From NCBI GenBank assembly GCA_019801415.1, contig JAHVJD010000003.1:186001-250000 (forward strand): DNA of 64,000 bases, written 5' to 3'. The notes under the pieces were generated by a model. The model worked only from the letters and a program-made list of their open reading frames with translations. It ran no database searches and was not told where the DNA came from. This document shows positions 4,247 through 32,665 of this stretch, in pieces. Made by a program: the position numbers and the translations under genes. Each line of letters begins with the position of its first letter. Position 1 is the stretch's first letter. Source of the stretch: Nocardioides marinus. Its GTDB lineage: Bacteria; Pseudomonadota; Alphaproteobacteria; Rhodobacterales; Rhodobacteraceae.

Positions 4247-5076
4247 GCCAGAAGCGCGGCGCGCGTGTCGGCGTCGACCTCCGGGCGCACTCCGAACCAG
4301 CGTTCAAAGCCCGGAACTGCCTGGTGCAGCAGCATGCCCAGCCCGTCGACCACGGTGCAGCCGACCTCTTCGGCATAGGACAGGAGCTCGGTCTTGAGCG
4401 GCGCATAGATCAGGTCCGTCACCACGGCGTCCTGGCGCAGGCCGTCCAGCGGCACCCGCAGCCGGGGATTGCCGGTCATGCCGAGGGATGTCGTGTTGAC
4501 CACCAGCGCGCCCTCCTCGATGATATTTCCGGCCTGAATCCAGTCTTCGACCCGGATGCGGTCGCCGAATTCGCTGCGCAGTTGCTCGGCCCGCTCGCGC
4601 GTGCGGTTGGTCAGCAGGATCTCGGGGACCCCCGCCTCCAGCAAGGATGCAACAACCGCGCGACAGGCGCCGCCGGCCCCCAGAACCACGGCCGGCCCGG
4701 ATTGCGGGTCCCAGTTCGGCGCGCCCTGATGGAGATTGGTGATAAAGCCATAGCCATCAGTGTTGTCAGCCAGAATGCTGCCGTCCTCGCGGAAGATCAA
4801 AGTGTTGGCGGCACCGATCACCTTGGCGCGGTCGGTCACCTGATCGGCAATGTCCATCACCGCTTCCTTGTGCGGGATCGTCACATTGGCCCCCACAAAG
4901 CCCATCTTGGGCATCATCCGGATGGCGTCTGCTAGATCCTCTGGCTCCACGTGCATGGGTATGTAATGGCCGGCGATGCCATGCTGCTGCAACCAGTGCC
5001 GGTGCAACTGTGGCGACTTGGACTGTGCAATCGGACAGCCGATCACGCCGGCGAGCGGTATTTTGGTCATGGTCAT
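4243..5076 (-). CDS. aroE: Shikimate dehydrogenase (NADP+)
   Basis: 277 residues. Reduces 3-dehydroshikimate to shikimate in the aromatic amino acid pathway. The shikimate-binding QSKSPQLH is near residue 20, the catalytic Lys is in NVTIPHKEAV, and Asn-Thr-Asp is in ILADNTDGYGF. The nucleotide-binding GAGGACRAVVASLLEAG and the NADP-recognition NRTRERAEQL match AroE rather than the quinate enzyme YdiB. Two in-frame ATGs lie at the start (MTM); the outer one overlaps the maf stop by 4 bases. Confidence 0.96.
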   Translation of the reverse strand: MTMTKIPLAGVIGCPIAQSKSPQLHRHWLQQHGIAGHYIPMHVEPEDLADAIRMMPKMGFVGANVTIPHKEAVMDIADQVTDRAKVIGAANTLIFREDGSILADNTDGYGFITNLHQGAPNWDPQSGPAVVLGAGGACRAVVASLLEAGVPEILLTNRTRERAEQLRSEFGDRIRVEDWIQAGNIIEEGALVVNTTSLGMTGNPRLRVPLDGLRQDAVVTDLIYAPLKTELLSYAEEVGCTVVDGLGMLLHQAVPGFERWFGVRPEVDADTRAALLA

Positions 5077-5672
5077 TGGTCGATCACCCCTTGCAGCCCG
5101 AGGTAGCTGATAAGCTCCATCAGCGGTAAACCCAAGACGTTGAAGTAATTTCCGTCGATACTGGCAAACAGTCGCACACCTTCTTCTTCCAGCTTGTACG
5201 CCCCAACCGCATGGCGAATGCTGTCCCAGTTGCGCTCGACATAATCGGCCAGGTAGGCGTCCGAGGATTTGCGCATCAGCAGCCGAACCTGCCCGACATG
5301 ACGCCAGATTGGCTGGCCATCCCGGTAGATCACCGCCGCCGACAGCAACATGTGGCGTTTGCCGCGCATTTCCTTCAACTGCTCGAACGCTTCAGCGGCG
5401 CTGGTGGGTTTCGACAACAGGCGGCCTTCGAAATCCAGCACCTGGTCACAGCCCAGCACCAGCCGGCCCGGGTGGCGCATGCTGATCTTGCGGGCCTTCG
5501 CCTCGGCCAGCGCGTCAGCGATATCGCGCGGCGGCGCTTCCTCCGCCAGCAGGGCGGCCTTGATCGCGGCCTCGTCCATTCGGGGCACATCGACGTCGAA
5601 AGCCACCCCCGCCTGACGCAGCAAATGCGCGCGGATTTCGGAACCGGATGCCAGAACGATGTGGGCAGTCAT
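5073..5672 (-). CDS. maf: Maf-family nucleoside triphosphate pyrophosphatase
   Basis: 199 residues. Maf proteins hydrolyse non-canonical or methylated NTPs to monophosphates (house-cleaning). The N-terminal active-site loop reads LASGSEIRAHLL instead of the classical S-x-S-P-R-R, as in many alphaproteobacterial origin-proximal Maf proteins. The later motifs are typical: VLGCDQVLDFEGRLLSKP and KLEEEGVRLFASIDGNYFNVLGLPL. It is the first gene of the leftward maf-aroE-coaE-dnaQ group. The 407-base gap upstream holds the candidate origin. Substrate specificity cannot be told from the sequence. Confidence 0.92.
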   Translation of the reverse strand: MTAHIVLASGSEIRAHLLRQAGVAFDVDVPRMDEAAIKAALLAEEAPPRDIADALAEAKARKISMRHPGRLVLGCDQVLDFEGRLLSKPTSAAEAFEQLKEMRGKRHMLLSAAVIYRDGQPIWRHVGQVRLLMRKSSDAYLADYVERNWDSIRHAVGAYKLEEEGVRLFASIDGNYFNVLGLPLMELISYLGLQGVIDQ

Positions 5673-6079
5673 GTGGAAAACCCCGTGGGAAAGACGCTGA
5701 AGAGTGCAGGACGTTTTGTATGGTTTTCCGCGCCCAAGTAAAGACTCGAGGGCTTGACGCGAACCTCAGGATTCAGCCGGCTGAGTCGTCCTTTGTGAAT
5801 CTGGATAACTTGAAATCCGTGGATATCCCGGTTTTCCCGGTTCTTCCCACGGTTATCCCCAACGCCATAAAGACGGCACACTCCTTAACCGCCCTTAAAT
5901 TTATGGCGCCGGCGGATTTTTCCCCGGACTGGTCCCGCAGTGCTGGAAACTTATCCCTACTGGGGATAAGCGGAGGAAGAGTCACTTATCCACTGGATTC
6001 AATGCACCCTACAAAAACATCATCCTTCTAATATTCATTTAATTATTAGGGTGGTCCGATCAGACCGGGGAGAACACCG
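5673..6079 (+). other. Candidate chromosomal replication origin (oriC) in the maf-hemJ divergent gap
   Basis: A 407-base gap between leftward maf and rightward hemJ with no convincing gene. It holds clustered DnaA-box-like 9-mers (consensus TTATCCACA). One-mismatch copies are at 5800-5808 (minus, TTATCCAGA), 5853-5861 (plus, TTATCCCCA), 5961-5969 (minus, TTATCCCCA) and 5986-5994 (plus, TTATCCACT). A two-mismatch copy is at 5951-5959 (plus, TTATCCCTA). An AT-rich stretch at 6027-6048 could be the unwinding element. Gene order matches the Caulobacter origin region, where maf, aroE, coaE and dnaQ lie on one side and rho, mnmE, mnmG and parAB on the other. The gap must also carry the maf and hemJ promoters. 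Seen: boxes and AT-rich patch. Inferred: origin function. Confidence 0.68.
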
Positions 6080-6535
6080 ATGGACCTGAGCAACCTGATG
6101 TTCACGCTCTACCCATACGCCAAGTCGCTGCACATCATGGCGGTGCTCAGCTGGATGGCCGGGCTGTTCTATCTGCCCCGTCTGTTCGTCTATCACGTGG
6201 AGCAGGCAGAGAAGGTTCAGGATGCACCTGCAATCTTCCTGACGATGGAGGACAAGCTGCTGCGTCTCATCATGCGTCCGGCCATGCATGTGGCCTGGGC
6301 TGCGGGGCTGTTCATCGTGCTGACCCCCGGTGTGGTCGACTGGAGCTATGTCTGGCCCTGGACCAAGGGTGTTTCGGTGATCGCGATGACCTGGTTTCAC
6401 CATTGGCTCCTTCTGCGGCACCGTGACTTCCGCGCCGGGCAGAACCGGCTGACCGGGCGGCAGTACAGATTGATGAACGAAGTGCCGACGCTGCTGATGG
6501 TGGTGATCGTGGTCTCCGTAATCTTCAAATTCTGA
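6080..6535 (+). CDS. hemJ: HemJ-type protoporphyrinogen IX oxidase
   Basis: 151 residues with about four membrane segments. HemJ oxidises protoporphyrinogen IX to protoporphyrin IX in the inner membrane and replaces HemG/HemY in most alphaproteobacteria. The conserved His is in YAKSLHIMAVLSWMAGLFYLP, and further family marks are RLFVYHVE and MRPAMHVAWAAGLF. GGGGAGA lies seven bases before the ATG. It is the first rightward gene from the candidate origin, and ferrochelatase (hemH) is elsewhere in the window. Confidence 0.93.
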   Translation: MDLSNLMFTLYPYAKSLHIMAVLSWMAGLFYLPRLFVYHVEQAEKVQDAPAIFLTMEDKLLRLIMRPAMHVAWAAGLFIVLTPGVVDWSYVWPWTKGVSVIAMTWFHHWLLLRHRDFRAGQNRLTGRQYRLMNEVPTLLMVVIVVSVIFKF

Positions 6536-6587
6536 CGCAGCGCGGCGCAGAGGTGGGCTGTGGCGGCGAAGCTGACGCAGCCGGCGT

Positions 6588-6616
6588 TTGACTCGCCCGG
6601 AACGAGTCCCTATGTA
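6588..6616 (+). promoter_or_regulatory. Candidate sigma-70-type promoter for rho
   Basis: TTGACT (6588-6593), a 17-base spacer, then TATGTA (6611-6616), about 95 bases before the rho start. The match and spacing are good, but this is inference from consensus only. Confidence 0.45.
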
Positions 6617-6709
6617 TGGGCCGCAACGCGCCCGTCCGGGCATCCGTGTTTTCCTAACCTGTCGTCTGACAAACCCTCGGTTAAGCGGGGGAGTAGAGGC
6701 CGTATCTAT

Positions 6710-7981
6710 ATGACCGTGCAATCCCTCAATCTGTCCGATCTGAAAGCAAAAAGCCCCAAAGCCCTGCTGGCGATGGCGGAAGAGCTGGAGATCGAAAACG
6801 CCTCCACCATGCGCAAGGGCGAAATGATGTTCCAGATCCTGCGCGAACGCGCAGACGAAGGCTGGGAAATCGGCGGCGACGGCGTGCTGGAAGTGCTGCA
6901 GGATGGATTCGGCTTCCTGCGCTCGCCCGAGGCAAACTACCTGCCGGGCCCAGATGACATCTATGTCTCGCCCGACATGATCCGTCAGTACAGCCTGCGC
7001 ACCGGCGATACGGTCGAAGGTCAGATCAAGGCACCGCTGGACAGCGAGCGCTATTTTGCCCTGACCAATGTCACCAAGATCAACTTCGAGGAGCCGGAAA
7101 AGGCGCGTCACAAGATCGCCTTCGACAACCTGACACCGCTGTATCCCGACGAGCGCCTGAAGATGGAGATCGAGGATCCCACCATCAAGGACCGTTCGGC
7201 CCGCGTGATCGACCTGGTGGCCCCCATCGGTAAAGGTCAGCGGTCGCTGATCGTGGCGCCGCCGCGCACCGGTAAGACGGTGATCCTGCAGAACATCGCC
7301 CATTCGATCGAGAAGAACCACCCCGAGTGCTACCTGATCGTGCTGCTGATCGACGAACGCCCGGAAGAGGTGACCGACATGCAGCGCTCGGTGAAGGGGG
7401 AGGTCGTCTCCTCCACCTTCGACGAGCCGGCGACGCGCCACGTGGCCGTGTCGGAAATGGTCATCGAAAAGGCCAAGCGCCTGGTGGAACATAAACGAGA
7501 TGTTGTGATCCTCCTCGATTCGATCACAAGACTTGGTAGAGCATTCAACACCGTCGTGCCGTCGTCCGGCAAGGTTCTGACCGGTGGTGTCGACGCAAAC
7601 GCCCTGCAGCGGCCGAAACGCTTCTTTGGTGCGGCCCGGAACATCGAAGAGGGCGGCTCGCTCACCATCATCGCCACCGCGCTGATCGACACCGGCAGCC
7701 GGATGGACGAGGTGATCTTTGAAGAATTCAAGGGCACCGGTAACTCGGAAATCGTGCTCGACCGCAAGATTGCCGACAAACGCGTGTTCCCGGCGATCGA
7801 CATCCTCAAATCCGGCACCCGGAAAGAGGATCTGCTGGTCGACAAGGGCGATCTGGCGAAGACCTTTGTGCTGCGTCGTATCCTGAACCCGATGGGCACC
7901 ACCGATGCGATTGAGTTCTTGCTGTCGAAGCTGAAGCAGACCAAGACAAACTCCGAATTCTTCGATTCTATGAACACCTGA
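6710..7981 (+). CDS. rho: Transcription termination factor Rho
   Basis: 423 residues, the normal Rho length. A hexameric RNA helicase that ends transcription. The N-terminal domain has the Rho_N helix-extended fold ([20 protein letters not shown]) and the cold-shock-like RNA-binding region ([19 protein letters not shown]). The ATPase core has Walker A APPRTGKT near residue 183, Walker [17 protein letters not shown] and the Q/R-loop region. The in-frame reading can be extended upstream to 6560, but I chose the ATG at 6710 because [12 protein letters not shown] is the conserved N-terminus and the 5' extension has unrelated composition. Confidence 0.96.
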
Positions 7982-9301: not shown

Positions 9302-9317
9302 TGTTTCACGTGAAACA
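9302..9317. promoter_or_regulatory. parS: parS centromere site 1 (perfect 16-bp palindrome)
   Basis: TGTTTCACGTGAAACA is the exact consensus ParB-binding site. It lies over the mnmG translation start, just after the AAAGGAG ribosome-binding sequence, and encodes FHVKH when read in the mnmG frame. parA and parB are 2.5 kb downstream. Confidence 0.95.
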
Positions 9318-11184
9318 TCCCGCGTTTGATGTAGTTGTCGTCGGAGGCGGTCACGCCGGCACCGAAGCGGCGCATGCGGCCGCGCGTATGGGCGCAAAAA
9401 CGGCTTTGGTCACCCTCAGCAAGGAGGGCATCGGGGTGATGTCCTGTAACCCGGCGATTGGCGGGTTGGGCAAGGGACACCTGGTCCGGGAAATCGACGC
9501 GCTGGACGGGGTGATGGGTCGTGTCGCCGATATGGCCGGCCTGCAATTCCGTCTGCTGAACCGGCGCAAGGGGCCGGCGGTGCAGGGACCCCGGGCGCAG
9601 TCGGACCGCCAGGTCTATCGGCGGGAGATGCTGAAGCTGACGGAAGCGCAGGCCAACCTCCAGATCGTTGAGGGCGAGGTTGTCGACTTTCTGATGGACA
9701 ACGGCAGCGTCGTTGGCGTGCGCCTGGCTGATGACAGCGAGATCTCCTGTCGCTCTGTCGTGCTTACCTCGGGCACCTTCCTGCGTGGGGTCATCCATAT
9801 CGGGGATGAATCCCGCCCCGGTGGCCGTATGGGCGACAACCCTTCGGTGCGCCTGGCTGAACGCCTTGATGACTTTGCACTGCCGTTGGGACGTCTGAAG
9901 ACCGGCACTCCGCCGCGATTGGATGGGCGCACGATCAACTGGTCCATCCTTGATGAGCAACCGGGCGATGACGATCCGGTGTTCTTCTCATTTCTGAGCA
10001 AAAGTACCAATATCCCGCAGCTGTCCTGCGGGATCACCCATACCAATTCAAAAACGCACGAGATCATCCGGGATAATCTGGATCGCTCGGCCATGTACGG
10101 CGGTCATATCGAAGGTGTCGGTCCACGCTATTGCCCATCGATCGAGGATAAGATCGTCCGATTTGCCGACAAGGACTCGCATCAGATATTTCTGGAGCCG
10201 GAAGGTGTATCGGACCATACGGTCTATCCCAATGGCATCTCCACCAGCCTGCCGATCGACGTGCAGGAAGCCTATGTAAATTCCATCCTTGGTCTGGAAG
10301 AGGCCCAGATCCTGCAACCGGGATACGCGATTGAATATGACTACGTAGACCCTCGAGCACTGTCTCTGGAACTTGCCGTCAAGGATGTCCCGGGGCTGTA
10401 CCTGGCCGGGCAGATCAACGGGACCACCGGTTATGAAGAGGCTGCGGCACAAGGGATGGTGGCAGGGCTGAATGCCGCCTTACGTAGTTTCGGGAAAGAT
10501 CCGATCATCTTCGGGCGCTCGAACAGCTACATCGGGGTTATGATCGACGATCTGACCACAAACGGAGTGAGCGAACCCTATCGCATGTTCACCTCTCGGG
10601 CTGAATTTCGGTTGTCCCTGAGGGCTGACAATGCCGATCAGAGACTAACACCCCTTGCCCTTGAGCTAGGCTGCGTCAGTGAGAGCCGGAAGCAGGCGTT
10701 TCTGGACAAGCAAGAGAAGCTGTCGGCCGCGCGAGATGCTCTGGAGAGCCAGACGTTCACGCCCAAGCAAATTTCCGAAGCTGGCATTCGGGTCAATCAG
10801 GACGGCAACAAACGGAGCGGCCTGGATGTATTGGCATTCCCGGACGTAAATTTTGAGGATGTCGTGCGTCTACTGCCGGCGCTGGGAGATGTGTCTGAGG
10901 ATATCCGTCGGCAGGTCGAACGCGACGCGCTCTATGCGAATTACATCGCAAGGCAGGAGCGGGAAGTCTCTGCACTGAAGCGGGACGAAGGGTATGCCAT
11001 TCCCAAGGACTTCTCCTTCGAAGGGATTGAAGGCCTGTCTTGGGAATTGCAACAGAAGCTGAGCCAGGTTCGACCGGAGACGCTCGCACAAGCGGCCCGA
11101 ATTGACGGCATGACTCCGGCGGCGCTGGCGCTTCTTCTGGCGCGGCTGCGGAAACCGGTTCGAAAGCAAGGCCGCAGAGCATGA
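9310..11184 (+). CDS. mnmG: tRNA uridine-5-carboxymethylaminomethyl modification enzyme MnmG (GidA)
   Basis: 624 residues from this start. The FAD- and NADH-dependent partner of MnmE. The FAD-binding [16 protein letters not shown] is at the N-terminus, followed by [20 protein letters not shown], the Cys-bearing MnmG motifs [14 protein letters not shown] and [12 protein letters not shown], and [22 protein letters not shown] prefer GTG at 9310 because AAAGGAG (9295-9301) lies eight bases upstream and the protein then starts MKHPAFDV. GTG at 9301 (MFHVKH) is the alternative, directly abutting that sequence. parS site 1 covers this start region. Its stop overlaps rsmG. Confidence 0.95.
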
Positions 11185-11798
11185 TGGATAAACAGTTGTT
11201 GGAGCAGCTCCATGTTTCACGTGAAACATTAGAGCGGCTTGAAATGTTTGACGCTGTCATCCGGAAATGGAATCCGCGGATCAACCTCGTCTCCCGTGCG
11301 AGCCTGGACGCGCTTTGGACCCGGCATATCGCCGATTCCGTTCAGGTTTTTCGCTGCGTCGAACCTGCTGAAAAGTGGGTTGATATCGGCAGTGGGGGTG
11401 GCTTCCCAGGCTTGATCATTGCGATCCTGGCGGCGGACGAGGCGCCGGATATGACTGTGACCTTGATCGAAAGCGATCAACGAAAATCGGCCTTCCTGCG
11501 CACGGCAGCCAGAGAATGCGGGGCAAAAGTCACCGTTCTGACAGAGCGCATCGAAAAGGCAGCGCCGCAGAACGCTGATGTCCTGTCGGCCCGGGCTTTG
11601 GCGGATCTATCCCTGCTGCTCGGGTTTTCCGAGCGCCATCTGAAGGCTGACGGCATCGCGCTGTTCCCTAAGGGCGAGCAGTGGAAAAAAGAAGTGGATA
11701 ACGCGCGTGAGCAATGGCGGTTTGAAGCTGAACCCGTTAAAAGTTTGACAGAACCAGAAGCAGTAATCCTGAACATCAGGGGAGTGGTACGTGTCTGA
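11181..11798 (+). CDS. rsmG: 16S rRNA (guanine527-N7)-methyltransferase RsmG (GidB)
   Basis: 205 residues. Uses SAM to methylate G527 of 16S rRNA. The Rossmann motif [36 protein letters not shown] and the late [14 protein letters not shown] are all family marks. ATG 11181 overlaps the mnmG stop (ATGA), and a second ATG follows at once at 11184; either could serve. Codons 11-16 coincide with the second parS site. Its 3' end overlaps parA by 8 bases. Confidence 0.95.
11213..11228. promoter_or_regulatory. parS: parS centromere site 2 (perfect 16-bp palindrome inside rsmG)
   Basis: A second exact TGTTTCACGTGAAACA, 1.9 kb from the first, read as part of the rsmG codons for HVSRET. It lies about 560 bases upstream of parA. 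Confidence 0.95.
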
Positions 11799-12600
11799 TT
11801 TTTTGCGTCCTGACGGGCCTCGGATCATCGCCATTGCAAATCAAAAAGGGGGGGTCGGGAAGACAACAACGACCATCAACCTGGCGGCGGCCATGGTGGA
11901 ATGCGGGCTCCGCGTATTGGTCGTTGATCTGGACCCCCAGGGCAACGCGTCCACTGGGTTGGGCATAGAAGCAACCGATCGAGAGCTCACCACTTATGAT
12001 CTTCTGGTTGAAGATGCGGACCTGAAGGACGTGATCCGGGCAACGGATATCGAAGATCTTTGCATCATTCCCGCCACTGTCGATCTGAGCTCGGCAGACA
12101 TCGAACTTTTCACCAACGAAAAGCGCAGCTTTCTTTTGCATGATGCCCTGCGGCAGACCGCGATGGATGAGTATGAGTGGGATTACGTCCTGATTGACTG
12201 CCCGCCATCCCTGAACCTCCTGACGGTGAATGCGATGGTGGCAGCGCATTCTGTCCTGGTTCCCTTGCAAAGCGAGTTCTTTGCGTTGGAGGGGGTGACG
12301 CAGCTGATGCTGACCATCCGAGAGGTGCGGCAGTCCGCCAATCCGAACCTGCGGATCGAGGGGGTGGTGCTGACGATGTACGATCGGCGCAATAACCTGT
12401 CCCAGCAGGTTGAACTCGACGCGCGGGAAAACCTTGGCGATCTGGTGTTCCGGACCAAGATCCCACGCAACGTACGGGTCAGCGAGGCCCCTTCCTACGC
12501 GCAACCGGTTCTCCAGTACGATAGCAATTCTCTGGGGGCCAAGGCGTATCGGGCGCTGGCCGAGGAAATCCTGAATAAACATCACAAGATAGCGGCATAA
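11791..12600 (+). CDS. parA: Chromosome-partitioning ATPase ParA
   Basis: 269 residues. DNA-binding ATPase that moves ParB-parS complexes apart. The deviant Walker [14 protein letters not shown] is near residue 12-24, followed by [14 protein letters not shown], Walker B-like [18 protein letters not shown] and the DNA-binding region [17 protein letters not shown]. The start overlaps rsmG by 8 bases. parB follows after 25 bases, so both are one transcript. Length and lack of an N-terminal HTH mark it as a chromosomal (type Ib-like/Soj) ParA. Confidence 0.97.
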
Positions 12601-12625: not shown

Positions 12626-13519
12626 ATGGCAGATAAAAAGGCAAAACCGCGTGGTCTGGGCCGAGGATTGTCAGCCTTGATGGCGGATGTGAACCCCGAG
12701 CCGGTGAGCACCCAGGCGGAAGCTCCGCGCAACGCAGAGATCCTGGTTCCCATCGAGAAAATCGTTGCCAACCCGAACCAGCCGCGTCGGCAGTTCCTGC
12801 AGGAAGATCTTGATGATCTGACGGCATCGATCAAGGAAAAGGGTGTTTTGCAGCCGCTCATCGTGCGGCCGACATCCGATGGCAAGTACGAGATCGTTGC
12901 AGGTGAACGGCGCTGGCGCGCGTCACAGGCAGCGCAGCTGCACGAAGTACCGGTCCTGATTCGGGACTACTCGGATCTTGAGATGATGGAAGTGGCCATC
13001 ATCGAAAACATCCAGCGCTCGGATCTCAACGCCATGGAAGAGGCGCAGAGTTACAAGCAGCTCATGGATAAGTTCGGCCACACCCAGGAAAAGATGGCGG
13101 AAGCACTCGGCAAAAGCCGCAGCCACATCGCCAACCTAGTCCGGCTTCTGCATTTGCCTGAGGACGTGCAGCAGCTTGTGCAGGAGCGAAAGCTGTCTGC
13201 CGGCCATGCCCGTGCGCTGATCACCTCGGACAACGCATCGGAACTTGCCGCGAAGATCGTAAAAGGTGGGCTGTCCGTGCGCGCTACCGAAGCGCTGGTC
13301 AAGAAGGCCGCCGCAGGCGGAAGCATCAAGCCAGCCCGCAAGTCGAAGAAGTCCGAGGAAAAGGACGCAGATACGCGGGCCCTGGAAGGTGATCTGTCTG
13401 CGGTTCTGAAAATGAAGGTCTCCATCGATCACAAGCCGGGCGGAGAAGCGGGCTCGGTGACGATCAGCTACGAAACCCTGGACCAGCTCGACGAGCTCTG
13501 CAATATCCTCAGCCGCTAG
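12626..13519 (+). CDS. parB: Chromosome-partitioning protein ParB
   Basis: 297 residues. Binds the parS sites seen at 9.3 and 11.2 kb, spreads along DNA and stimulates ParA. The N-terminal ParB/Srx domain has the CTP-binding GERRWRA (from residue 93) and [15 protein letters not shown]. The HTH that reads parS is [20 protein letters not shown] (about 157-176). A basic linker rich in Lys and Ala near 235 precedes the C-terminal dimerisation domain. The stop overlaps the convergent DUF454 gene by 11 bases. Confidence 0.97.
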
Positions 13520-31678: not shown

Positions 31679-32665
31679 ATGACTCTTGGTTCGAAAATCG
31701 CGTGGGACGACACCGTCCTGCCCTTCCAGCTTGATGCCTCGGATATGCGCGGCCGCGTTGCGCGGCTGGATGGCGTGCTGGATGGTATCCTGAAACAACA
31801 TGACTACCCGCCGCAGGTCGAAGCGCTGGTTGCCGAGATGGCCCTGCTCACTGCGCTGATCGGCCAGACCATTTCGCTGCGCTGGAAGCTGTCGCTGCAG
31901 GTGCAGTCCAAGGGCGCGGTGCGGATGATCGCCACCGACTATTACGCCCCGCAGAAGGAAGGCGAGATCGGCCAGATCCGCGCCTATGCCAGCTTTGACC
32001 GTGACCGCCTGACCGACGGCGATCCTTTTGAACAGGTGGGCGAGGGCTATTTCGCGATCCTGATCGATCAGGGCAATGGCACGCAGCCCTATCAGGGCAT
32101 CACGCCTTTGGCCCAAGGGTCTCTCAGTGCCTGCGCGGAAACCTATTTTGCCCAGTCCGAGCAATTGCCGACGATGTTCAAGCTCAGCTTTGGAAAATCG
32201 GCGGAGCCGGGTGTGGCGGAGCACTGGCGCGCCGGCGGCGTGATGCTGCAGCATATGCCCAAGGCCTCGCCCTTCGCGGCGCAGGGCGAGGGCACGGGTG
32301 AAGCCTTGCAGGCTGGTGATCTGGTGTCCGGTGATCAGGAGGAAAACTGGAACCGCGTGACCATGCTGTTGAACACGGTGGAAGACCTTGAATTGATTGG
32401 TCCTTCCGTCACTCCGGCTGATCTTCTGGTGCGATTGTTTCACGAGGAACAACCGCGGGTCTATGACTTCCAGCCGGTGCGTTTCGGCTGCACCTGCTCT
32501 GAGGAGCGCGTCAGACAGAGCCTGTCGATCTATTCGGCCAAGGACATCGAGAAGATGACCACCGACGACGGCCGGGTCACTGCAGACTGCCAGTTCTGTG
32601 GCGCCCATTACGATCTGGACCCGGCATCGCTGGGCTTTGATGCGGATCAGTCGCCCAGTGCCTGA
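31679..32665 (+). CDS. hslO: Redox-regulated chaperone Hsp33
   Basis: 328 residues. A holdase activated when its zinc centre is oxidised. The four redox-switch cysteines are in RFGCTCSEERV and DCQFCGAHYDLD (C-x-C and C-x2-C). The N-terminal domain holds LTALIGQTISLRWKLSLQVQ and the conserved MLKDA-like region. The ATG at 31679 follows AAGGAAACC. A 14/16 parS-like sequence lies inside the gene at 32436-32451. The Nudix CoA pyrophosphatase gene overlaps its 3' end. Confidence 0.95.
   Translation: MTLGSKIAWDDTVLPFQLDASDMRGRVARLDGVLDGILKQHDYPPQVEALVAEMALLTALIGQTISLRWKLSLQVQSKGAVRMIATDYYAPQKEGEIGQIRAYASFDRDRLTDGDPFEQVGEGYFAILIDQGNGTQPYQGITPLAQGSLSACAETYFAQSEQLPTMFKLSFGKSAEPGVAEHWRAGGVMLQHMPKASPFAAQGEGTGEALQAGDLVSGDQEENWNRVTMLLNTVEDLELIGPSVTPADLLVRLFHEEQPRVYDFQPVRFGCTCSEERVRQSLSIYSAKDIEKMTTDDGRVTADCQFCGAHYDLDPASLGFDADQSPSA

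Follow-up and report, generated by a model that had tools for sequence, protein, structure and literature searches.

The 407-bp gap between maf and hemJ, at positions 5673-6079 of the window (the whole stretch of 64,000 nucleotides that was analysed), is very probably the chromosomal replication origin (oriC), as judged from its sequence and from those of related genomes. The origin is an ordinary and well conserved one, and was correctly spotted in the preliminary description of this DNA, which placed it between these two genes; its DnaA boxes, its AT-rich tract, the nearby parS sites and parAB genes, and the GC skew of relatives all support that placement. What is new is a conserved block, CCCTACAAAAACATCATCCT, situated where the gap is best conserved. 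In this way the start site of chromosome replication in a marine bacterial group can be pinned to one 400-bp gap, with an anatomy that is readable from the sequence. The locus is made up as follows.

5073-5672, minus strand: maf (NCBIfam Maf family model at or above cut-off)
5673..6079, no strand: putative oriC region, the maf-hemJ gap, 407 bp
6080-6535, plus strand: hemJ (HemJ model 118.4 bits, under its cut-off of 138.05)
9302..9317, plus strand: exact parS, in the start of mnmG
11213..11228, plus strand: exact parS, in the start of the frame at 11181-11798, which we take to be rsmG from the gene order
11791-12600, plus strand: parA (only related ParA-like models, all under cut-off)
12626-13519, plus strand: parB (ParB domain model above cut-off)

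The genes dnaQ, coaE, aroE, rho, mnmE and mnmG, and the ParB domain, were named by NCBIfam models at or above cut-off. In the list of open reading frames maf and hemJ point apart, and the divergence of the flanking genes that had been described was thus confirmed.

The elements recognized in the gap are listed below. Counts of aligned gaps refer to an alignment of 79 rows, with the window as reference.

5672-5680: fifth one-mismatch DnaA box TTTTCCACA, spanning the maf start
5743, 5770, 5783, 5797, 5979 and 5996 (span 5743..6000), no strand: six GANTC, the CcrM methylation motif
5800..5808, minus strand: DnaA box TTATCCAGA, 1 mismatch
5818..5826, minus strand: weak DnaA box ATATCCACG, 2 mismatches; at most 2 in 38/79 aligned gaps
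5853..5861, plus strand: DnaA box TTATCCCCA, 1 mismatch; at most 1 in 67/79 and at most 2 in 70/79
5951..5959, plus strand: weak DnaA box TTATCCCTA, 2 mismatches; at most 2 in only 24/79
5961..5969, minus strand: DnaA box TTATCCCCA, 1 mismatch; at most 1 in 40/79 and at most 2 in 70/79
5986..5994, plus strand: last DnaA box TTATCCACT, beside the putative opening region, 1 mismatch; at most 1 in 34/79 and at most 2 in 78/79
6007..6026, plus strand: conserved block CCCTACAAAAACATCATCCT, candidate opening element, with the top-identity 20-mers of the gap
6027..6048, no strand: AT-rich tract, candidate DNA unwinding element, 2 G/C of 22

The box cluster reported previously stands, with a corrected count: six DnaA-box-like 9-mers, rather than five, were found in 195 bp, and the four said to carry a single mismatch (5800, 5853, 5961 and 5986) were recovered. 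The box at 5800 retains a TTATCC core in 67/79 aligned gaps, with at most one mismatch in only 8/79 and at most two in 51/79. Four one-mismatch boxes in the gap compare with a mean of 0.08 after dinucleotide shuffling of its sequence; the largest value in 4000 shuffles was 2, and none reached four. In the 410 kb of the contig that contains the window (C3), the gap is the densest cluster of such boxes, with four in 300 bp against two at the next separate place. When up to two mismatches are allowed, six boxes lie wholly inside the gap (shuffled mean 1.0; 0/1000 gap shuffles reach six), although here the contrast with the contig is weaker, seven in 400 bp at the gap versus six in 400 bp at C3:322616. 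The 64-kb window as a whole holds seven one-mismatch boxes, an unremarkable number (15/100 shuffles reach it), five of which touch or lie in the gap. No genome-wide enrichment of TTATCCMCA was observed (22 matches versus 21 for the reversed control); its matches include a pair at the origin and seven, at least 10 kb apart, on contig C7. Exact TTATCCACA was absent from the 410 kb of C3. It is the clustering of close box matches that carries the weight. That cluster, beyond chance when compared with the shuffles and with the 410 kb, is one mark of an oriC. An AT-rich element beside the boxes is another, and on composition it is present: the patch noted earlier at 6027-6048 was borne out, and the 410 kb has just 3 places with a 22-mer as poor in G/C.

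A hemJ scan of the genome collection was used to find related loci, and the best 80 of 233 were taken as relatives. By title these are members of roseobacter genera or carry just the label Rhodobacteraceae, Rhodobacterales or Alphaproteobacteria bacterium. Leisingera accounts for the first seven, at 83-87% identity, which makes the window probably Leisingera or a near neighbour of it. A maf gene was on the contig in 78 of these best 80 loci (L032 and L059, which have none, were left out of the gap counts), and in all 78 it adjoins hemJ in the same orientation, across 396-446 bp. The gap holds one or more one-mismatch boxes in 77 of the 78 relatives, the exception being L063. Together the 79 gaps contain 190 such boxes, against a shuffled mean of 8.7 and 14 in the largest of 60 shuffles.

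It is apparent from the 79-row alignment that the block is conserved at least as well as the boxes. Mean identity to the window is highest in the gap, at 0.91, for the two 20-mers that begin at 6007 and 6008 (median 0.56); averaged over its columns, the box at 5853 as a whole reaches 0.89 and that at 5986 reaches 0.84. The block is thus slightly above these two boxes in conservation, and the box cores are equally well kept. The block is not itself a DnaA box. In 77 of the 79 gaps both the last box and the CTAC (or CAAC) of the block could be located by pattern, and in 73 of these 77 their starts are 22 or 23 bp apart.

GC skew was examined in relatives and in the 410 kb of the window's own contig, because the draft assembly of the window genome is split into 20 contigs. 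The relatives, MED193, G184 (of the same genus as the window genome), G008 and G150, have contigs of 3.65-4.25 Mb; minima were taken over the fetched 180-400 kb, and the rest of each contig was sampled. The skew minimum anticipated at the maf-hemJ junction was found there in 4/4 of these long-contig relatives, the local minimum being no more than 450 bp from the conserved block of the gap. Minima were located at 2286019 over 400 kb in MED193 (gap 2285551-2285962, block 2285889), at 4108610 over 240 kb in G184 (block 4108765), at 3523143 over 180 kb in G008 (block 3523581) and at 128026 over 240 kb in G150 (block 127905). One-step fits gave 3-lnL ranges of 2285.5-2288.0 kb for MED193, 4106.5-4109.5 kb for G184, 3523.0-3525.5 kb for G008 and 127.5-129.5 kb for G150, each of which contains all or part of the gap. 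In all four, the sampled stretches show a second sign change roughly half a contig away. Thirty-eight stretches of the 4.12-Mb MED193 contig placed the sign changes at the junction and between 0.23 and 0.42 Mb. Eight distant samples from G184 were weak (0.062 to -0.084), with positive values as far as 1.5 Mb and negative ones beginning at 2.0 Mb. In G008 the sign changes between 1.6 Mb, the end of the positive samples, and 2.0 Mb, where the negative ones begin, and the samples of G150 were positive to 2.0 Mb (0.004 there) and negative from 2.4 Mb. A single 20-kb left-arm stretch of G150 (28001) had the wrong sign, with a skew of 0.014.

On the window's own contig the result depends on the stretch considered. 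The minimum within the 64-kb window is at 6136, 56 bp inside hemJ, but the absolute minimum of the 410 kb is at C3:160360, approximately 32 kb to the left of the gap, with a skew of -4487 against -4413 at C3:192136 (window 6136). An active origin at C3:160-163 kb, near hemD and tsaD, with the maf-hemJ gap a disused ancestral origin, would explain this, and other data point the same way. In a one-step fit the change falls at 160.0-163.0 kb, and 192 kb fares worse by 3.5 lnL. Strand-separated third-position skew of C3 160-192 kb, for genes from a simple composition-based caller, is nearer to the right arm than to the left and so leans toward 160 kb. The parS-like sequence TTTCACGTGAAG at C3:160419, inside the hemD frame, is 59 bp from the absolute minimum, with 0.01 such sites expected by chance in 20 kb. 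Nevertheless, just 74 skew units separate the two troughs, out of an amplitude of approximately 6300, and the profile stays flat from 160 to 192 kb. The absolute minimum falls inside the hemD frame, which matches Pfam HEM4 at 91.4 bits and has tsaD (302.7 bits) as its neighbour; 800 bp there contain one two-mismatch box and no box cluster. Moreover, the 160-192 kb segment is collinear in MED193 and G184, both of which have their minimum at maf-hemJ. A leftward origin is for these reasons very improbable, and the flat stretch is read here as noise or local rearrangement history rather than a second origin.

The two parS sites described previously as lying within 6 kb were verified as exact 16-mers at 9302 and 11213, 3.2 and 5.1 kb from the gap. 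The 12-bp parS core was found at just 3 places in the 3.89-Mb genome. In four relatives (G001-G004) the exact core occurs at 2 places each, all 8 of them within the fetched range of the hemJ locus. The third exact core of the window genome is at C3:105973, approximately 86 kb left of the gap, and degenerate parS-like 16-mers are present at window positions 32436 and 50000, with 2 and 3 mismatches. Nearly all the alphaproteobacterial genomes analysed in one study have parAB near ori, and the Rhodobacterales are among the groups with exceptions (PMC8116508).

Under a second alternative, the gap would serve maf and hemJ-rho as a divergent regulatory region and not as an origin, with DnaA in the role of a transcription factor and the block as a hemJ-rho promoter or operator. 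The divergence of the flanking genes is consistent with this, and two genomes bear on it directly. G150 (L160/L230) and G039 (L234) have no hemJ between maf and rho, and the sole hemJ-like genes found in them are 28-32% identical, situated elsewhere and without the block in the fetched surroundings. Their junctions nonetheless keep the boxes and the block, with boxes at -22 and -47 (the G039 box at -47 having two mismatches). The block is thereby freed from hemJ, but still not from rho, upstream of which it continues to lie, and this leaves room for a promoter role. Against the regulatory reading is the skew sign change at this place in four relatives, since a promoter would not cause one. In addition, a scan for one promoter type found no sigma-70-like promoter in 5600-6200, and the 18-position pattern derived from the block has a single match in the window's own genome. 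The probability that the gap is merely regulatory is judged to be very small. The one terminator-like stem, at 5770-5787, is within shuffled expectation. A structured RNA in the gap region was rejected, there being no Rfam match at gathering scores in 5000-7000.

With the gap taken as an origin, the role of the block can be considered. It is a candidate DnaA-dependent opening element on sequence grounds, and a testable lead, short enough for direct test by mutation. By the published DnaA-trio rule (PMC8287927), a box should have three or more trios no farther than 16 bp away. Downstream of the window's last box, that number of NAN trios was not found within this distance, and a standard DnaA-trio array at that box was ruled out by this formal spacing rule. 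The only trio candidate in the window's gap consists of three trios that face upstream. The rule holds at the last box in 17/79 gaps, and anywhere in the gap in 73/79, a result too permissive to mean much. The arrangement resembles the basal unwinding system of Bacillus subtilis and others (PMC8287927) in its succession of last box, short spacer, conserved sequence and AT tract, and differs from it in that the window's last box has no trios at the published spacing. On the plus strand, seven consecutive NTN triplets begin 24 bp after that box. Triplet runs average 5.1 versus 2.9 in shuffles, a difference among related sequences that is not readable as a probability, and this comparison leaves out the 10/79 gaps without ATCATC.

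Tentatively, then, CCCTACAAAA(A/C)CATCATCC might be an origin-opening element of the Rhodobacteraceae's own, read by DnaA or by a lineage-specific partner and directing the melting of the T-rich tract that lies behind it; as part of the same somewhat doubtful proposal, the block would replace a standard DnaA-trio array. No account of how alphaproteobacterial origins with off-consensus boxes and without CtrA sites are opened was found in the portions of the literature examined.

The 18-position pattern matched in 91/195 genomes. Among 30 pattern loci looked at, 13 were at the maf/hemJ/rho junction and 17 elsewhere, and many of the latter resemble coding repeats in our reading. For that reason the pattern alone marks no origin, and its use as an order-wide origin marker was rejected. 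Further matches in G075, G045, G010 and G039 were at the junction in 4/4 cases, which is not a fair rate because these four were picked for their AT-rich look; the G010 junction was placed by aroE, hemJ and rho, with no maf match shown. In G195 the contig stops approximately 150 bp past the block, which would fit a record that was cut at the origin.

In the mechanism proposed, DnaA would load on the boxes at 5800-5861 and 5951-5994 and extend from the box at 5986, the last one, over the block at 6007-6026. The AT tract at 6027-6048 would be opened for helicase loading, and forks would then depart in both directions. ParB-parS would move the new origins apart, and the GANTC sites could let CcrM methylation influence timing or nearby transcription.

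The six GANTC in the gap compare with a contig mean of 0.51 per 407 bp; six or more per 407 bp occur at 3 places in 410 kb, and 22/3000 gap shuffles reach six. Over the 79 gaps there are 256 GANTC, against a shuffled mean of 150 and 173 in the largest of 60 shuffles. The motif is absent from 8/79 gaps and recurs at 5783 in 45/79 and at 5979 in 39/79. The enrichment is moderate, and other AT-rich palindromes are enriched in the gaps too. GANTC-rich origins of the repABC type are noted in a review (PMC6090056).

In comparison with Caulobacter crescentus, the order of genes at the junction matches the flanks of Cori, which we take to be dnaQ-coaE-aroE-maf on one side and rho-mnmE-mnmG-parAB on the other. 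The Caulobacter origin is presumably also flanked by hemE and ppsR; in the window genome hemE is on contig C10 and not at the maf-hemJ junction, ppsR has no match, and the ppsR/hemE type of alphaproteobacterial origin junction was not found here. CtrA sites have the motif TTAA-N7-TTAA, which was not found in the window's gap and occurs once in 15/79 gaps. One TTAA-N6-TTAA, at 5885, is present in 5/79 gaps. Control of the window's origin by CtrA was ruled out on the lack of this N7 motif, in contrast to Cori, which has five CtrA sites (PMC4468827). As in Cori, the boxes of the gap are off consensus rather than perfect, but the weak boxes of Caulobacter are of another type, with a T to G change (PMC4468827).

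An origin in the Rhodobacteraceae is itself no novelty, because oriC was predicted in 101 strains of the family by Ori-Finder (PMC6699656). Those origins and this one share the family and the criteria applied (DnaA boxes, skew minimum and parAB nearby), and are likened by criteria, not by coordinates. The database origin of D. shibae is described as next to Dshi_3484/3485 (PMC6473078), and a marker-frequency study includes C. sphaeroides and Paracoccus in its strain list (PMC13342612). The combination of maf and hemJ as an origin junction was named in no title or abstract found in a literature search, which is no proof of absence.

Two further places on C3 deserve mention for their boxes. The second densest place for two-mismatch boxes in the 410 kb, C3:322616, has an inverted TTATCCCCC pair. 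A copy of TTATCCCCA at C3:67463 flanks dnaA (domain at C3:66192-66677, minus strand) on its upstream side, approximately 125 kb away from the gap, and suggests a possible self-regulation of dnaA.
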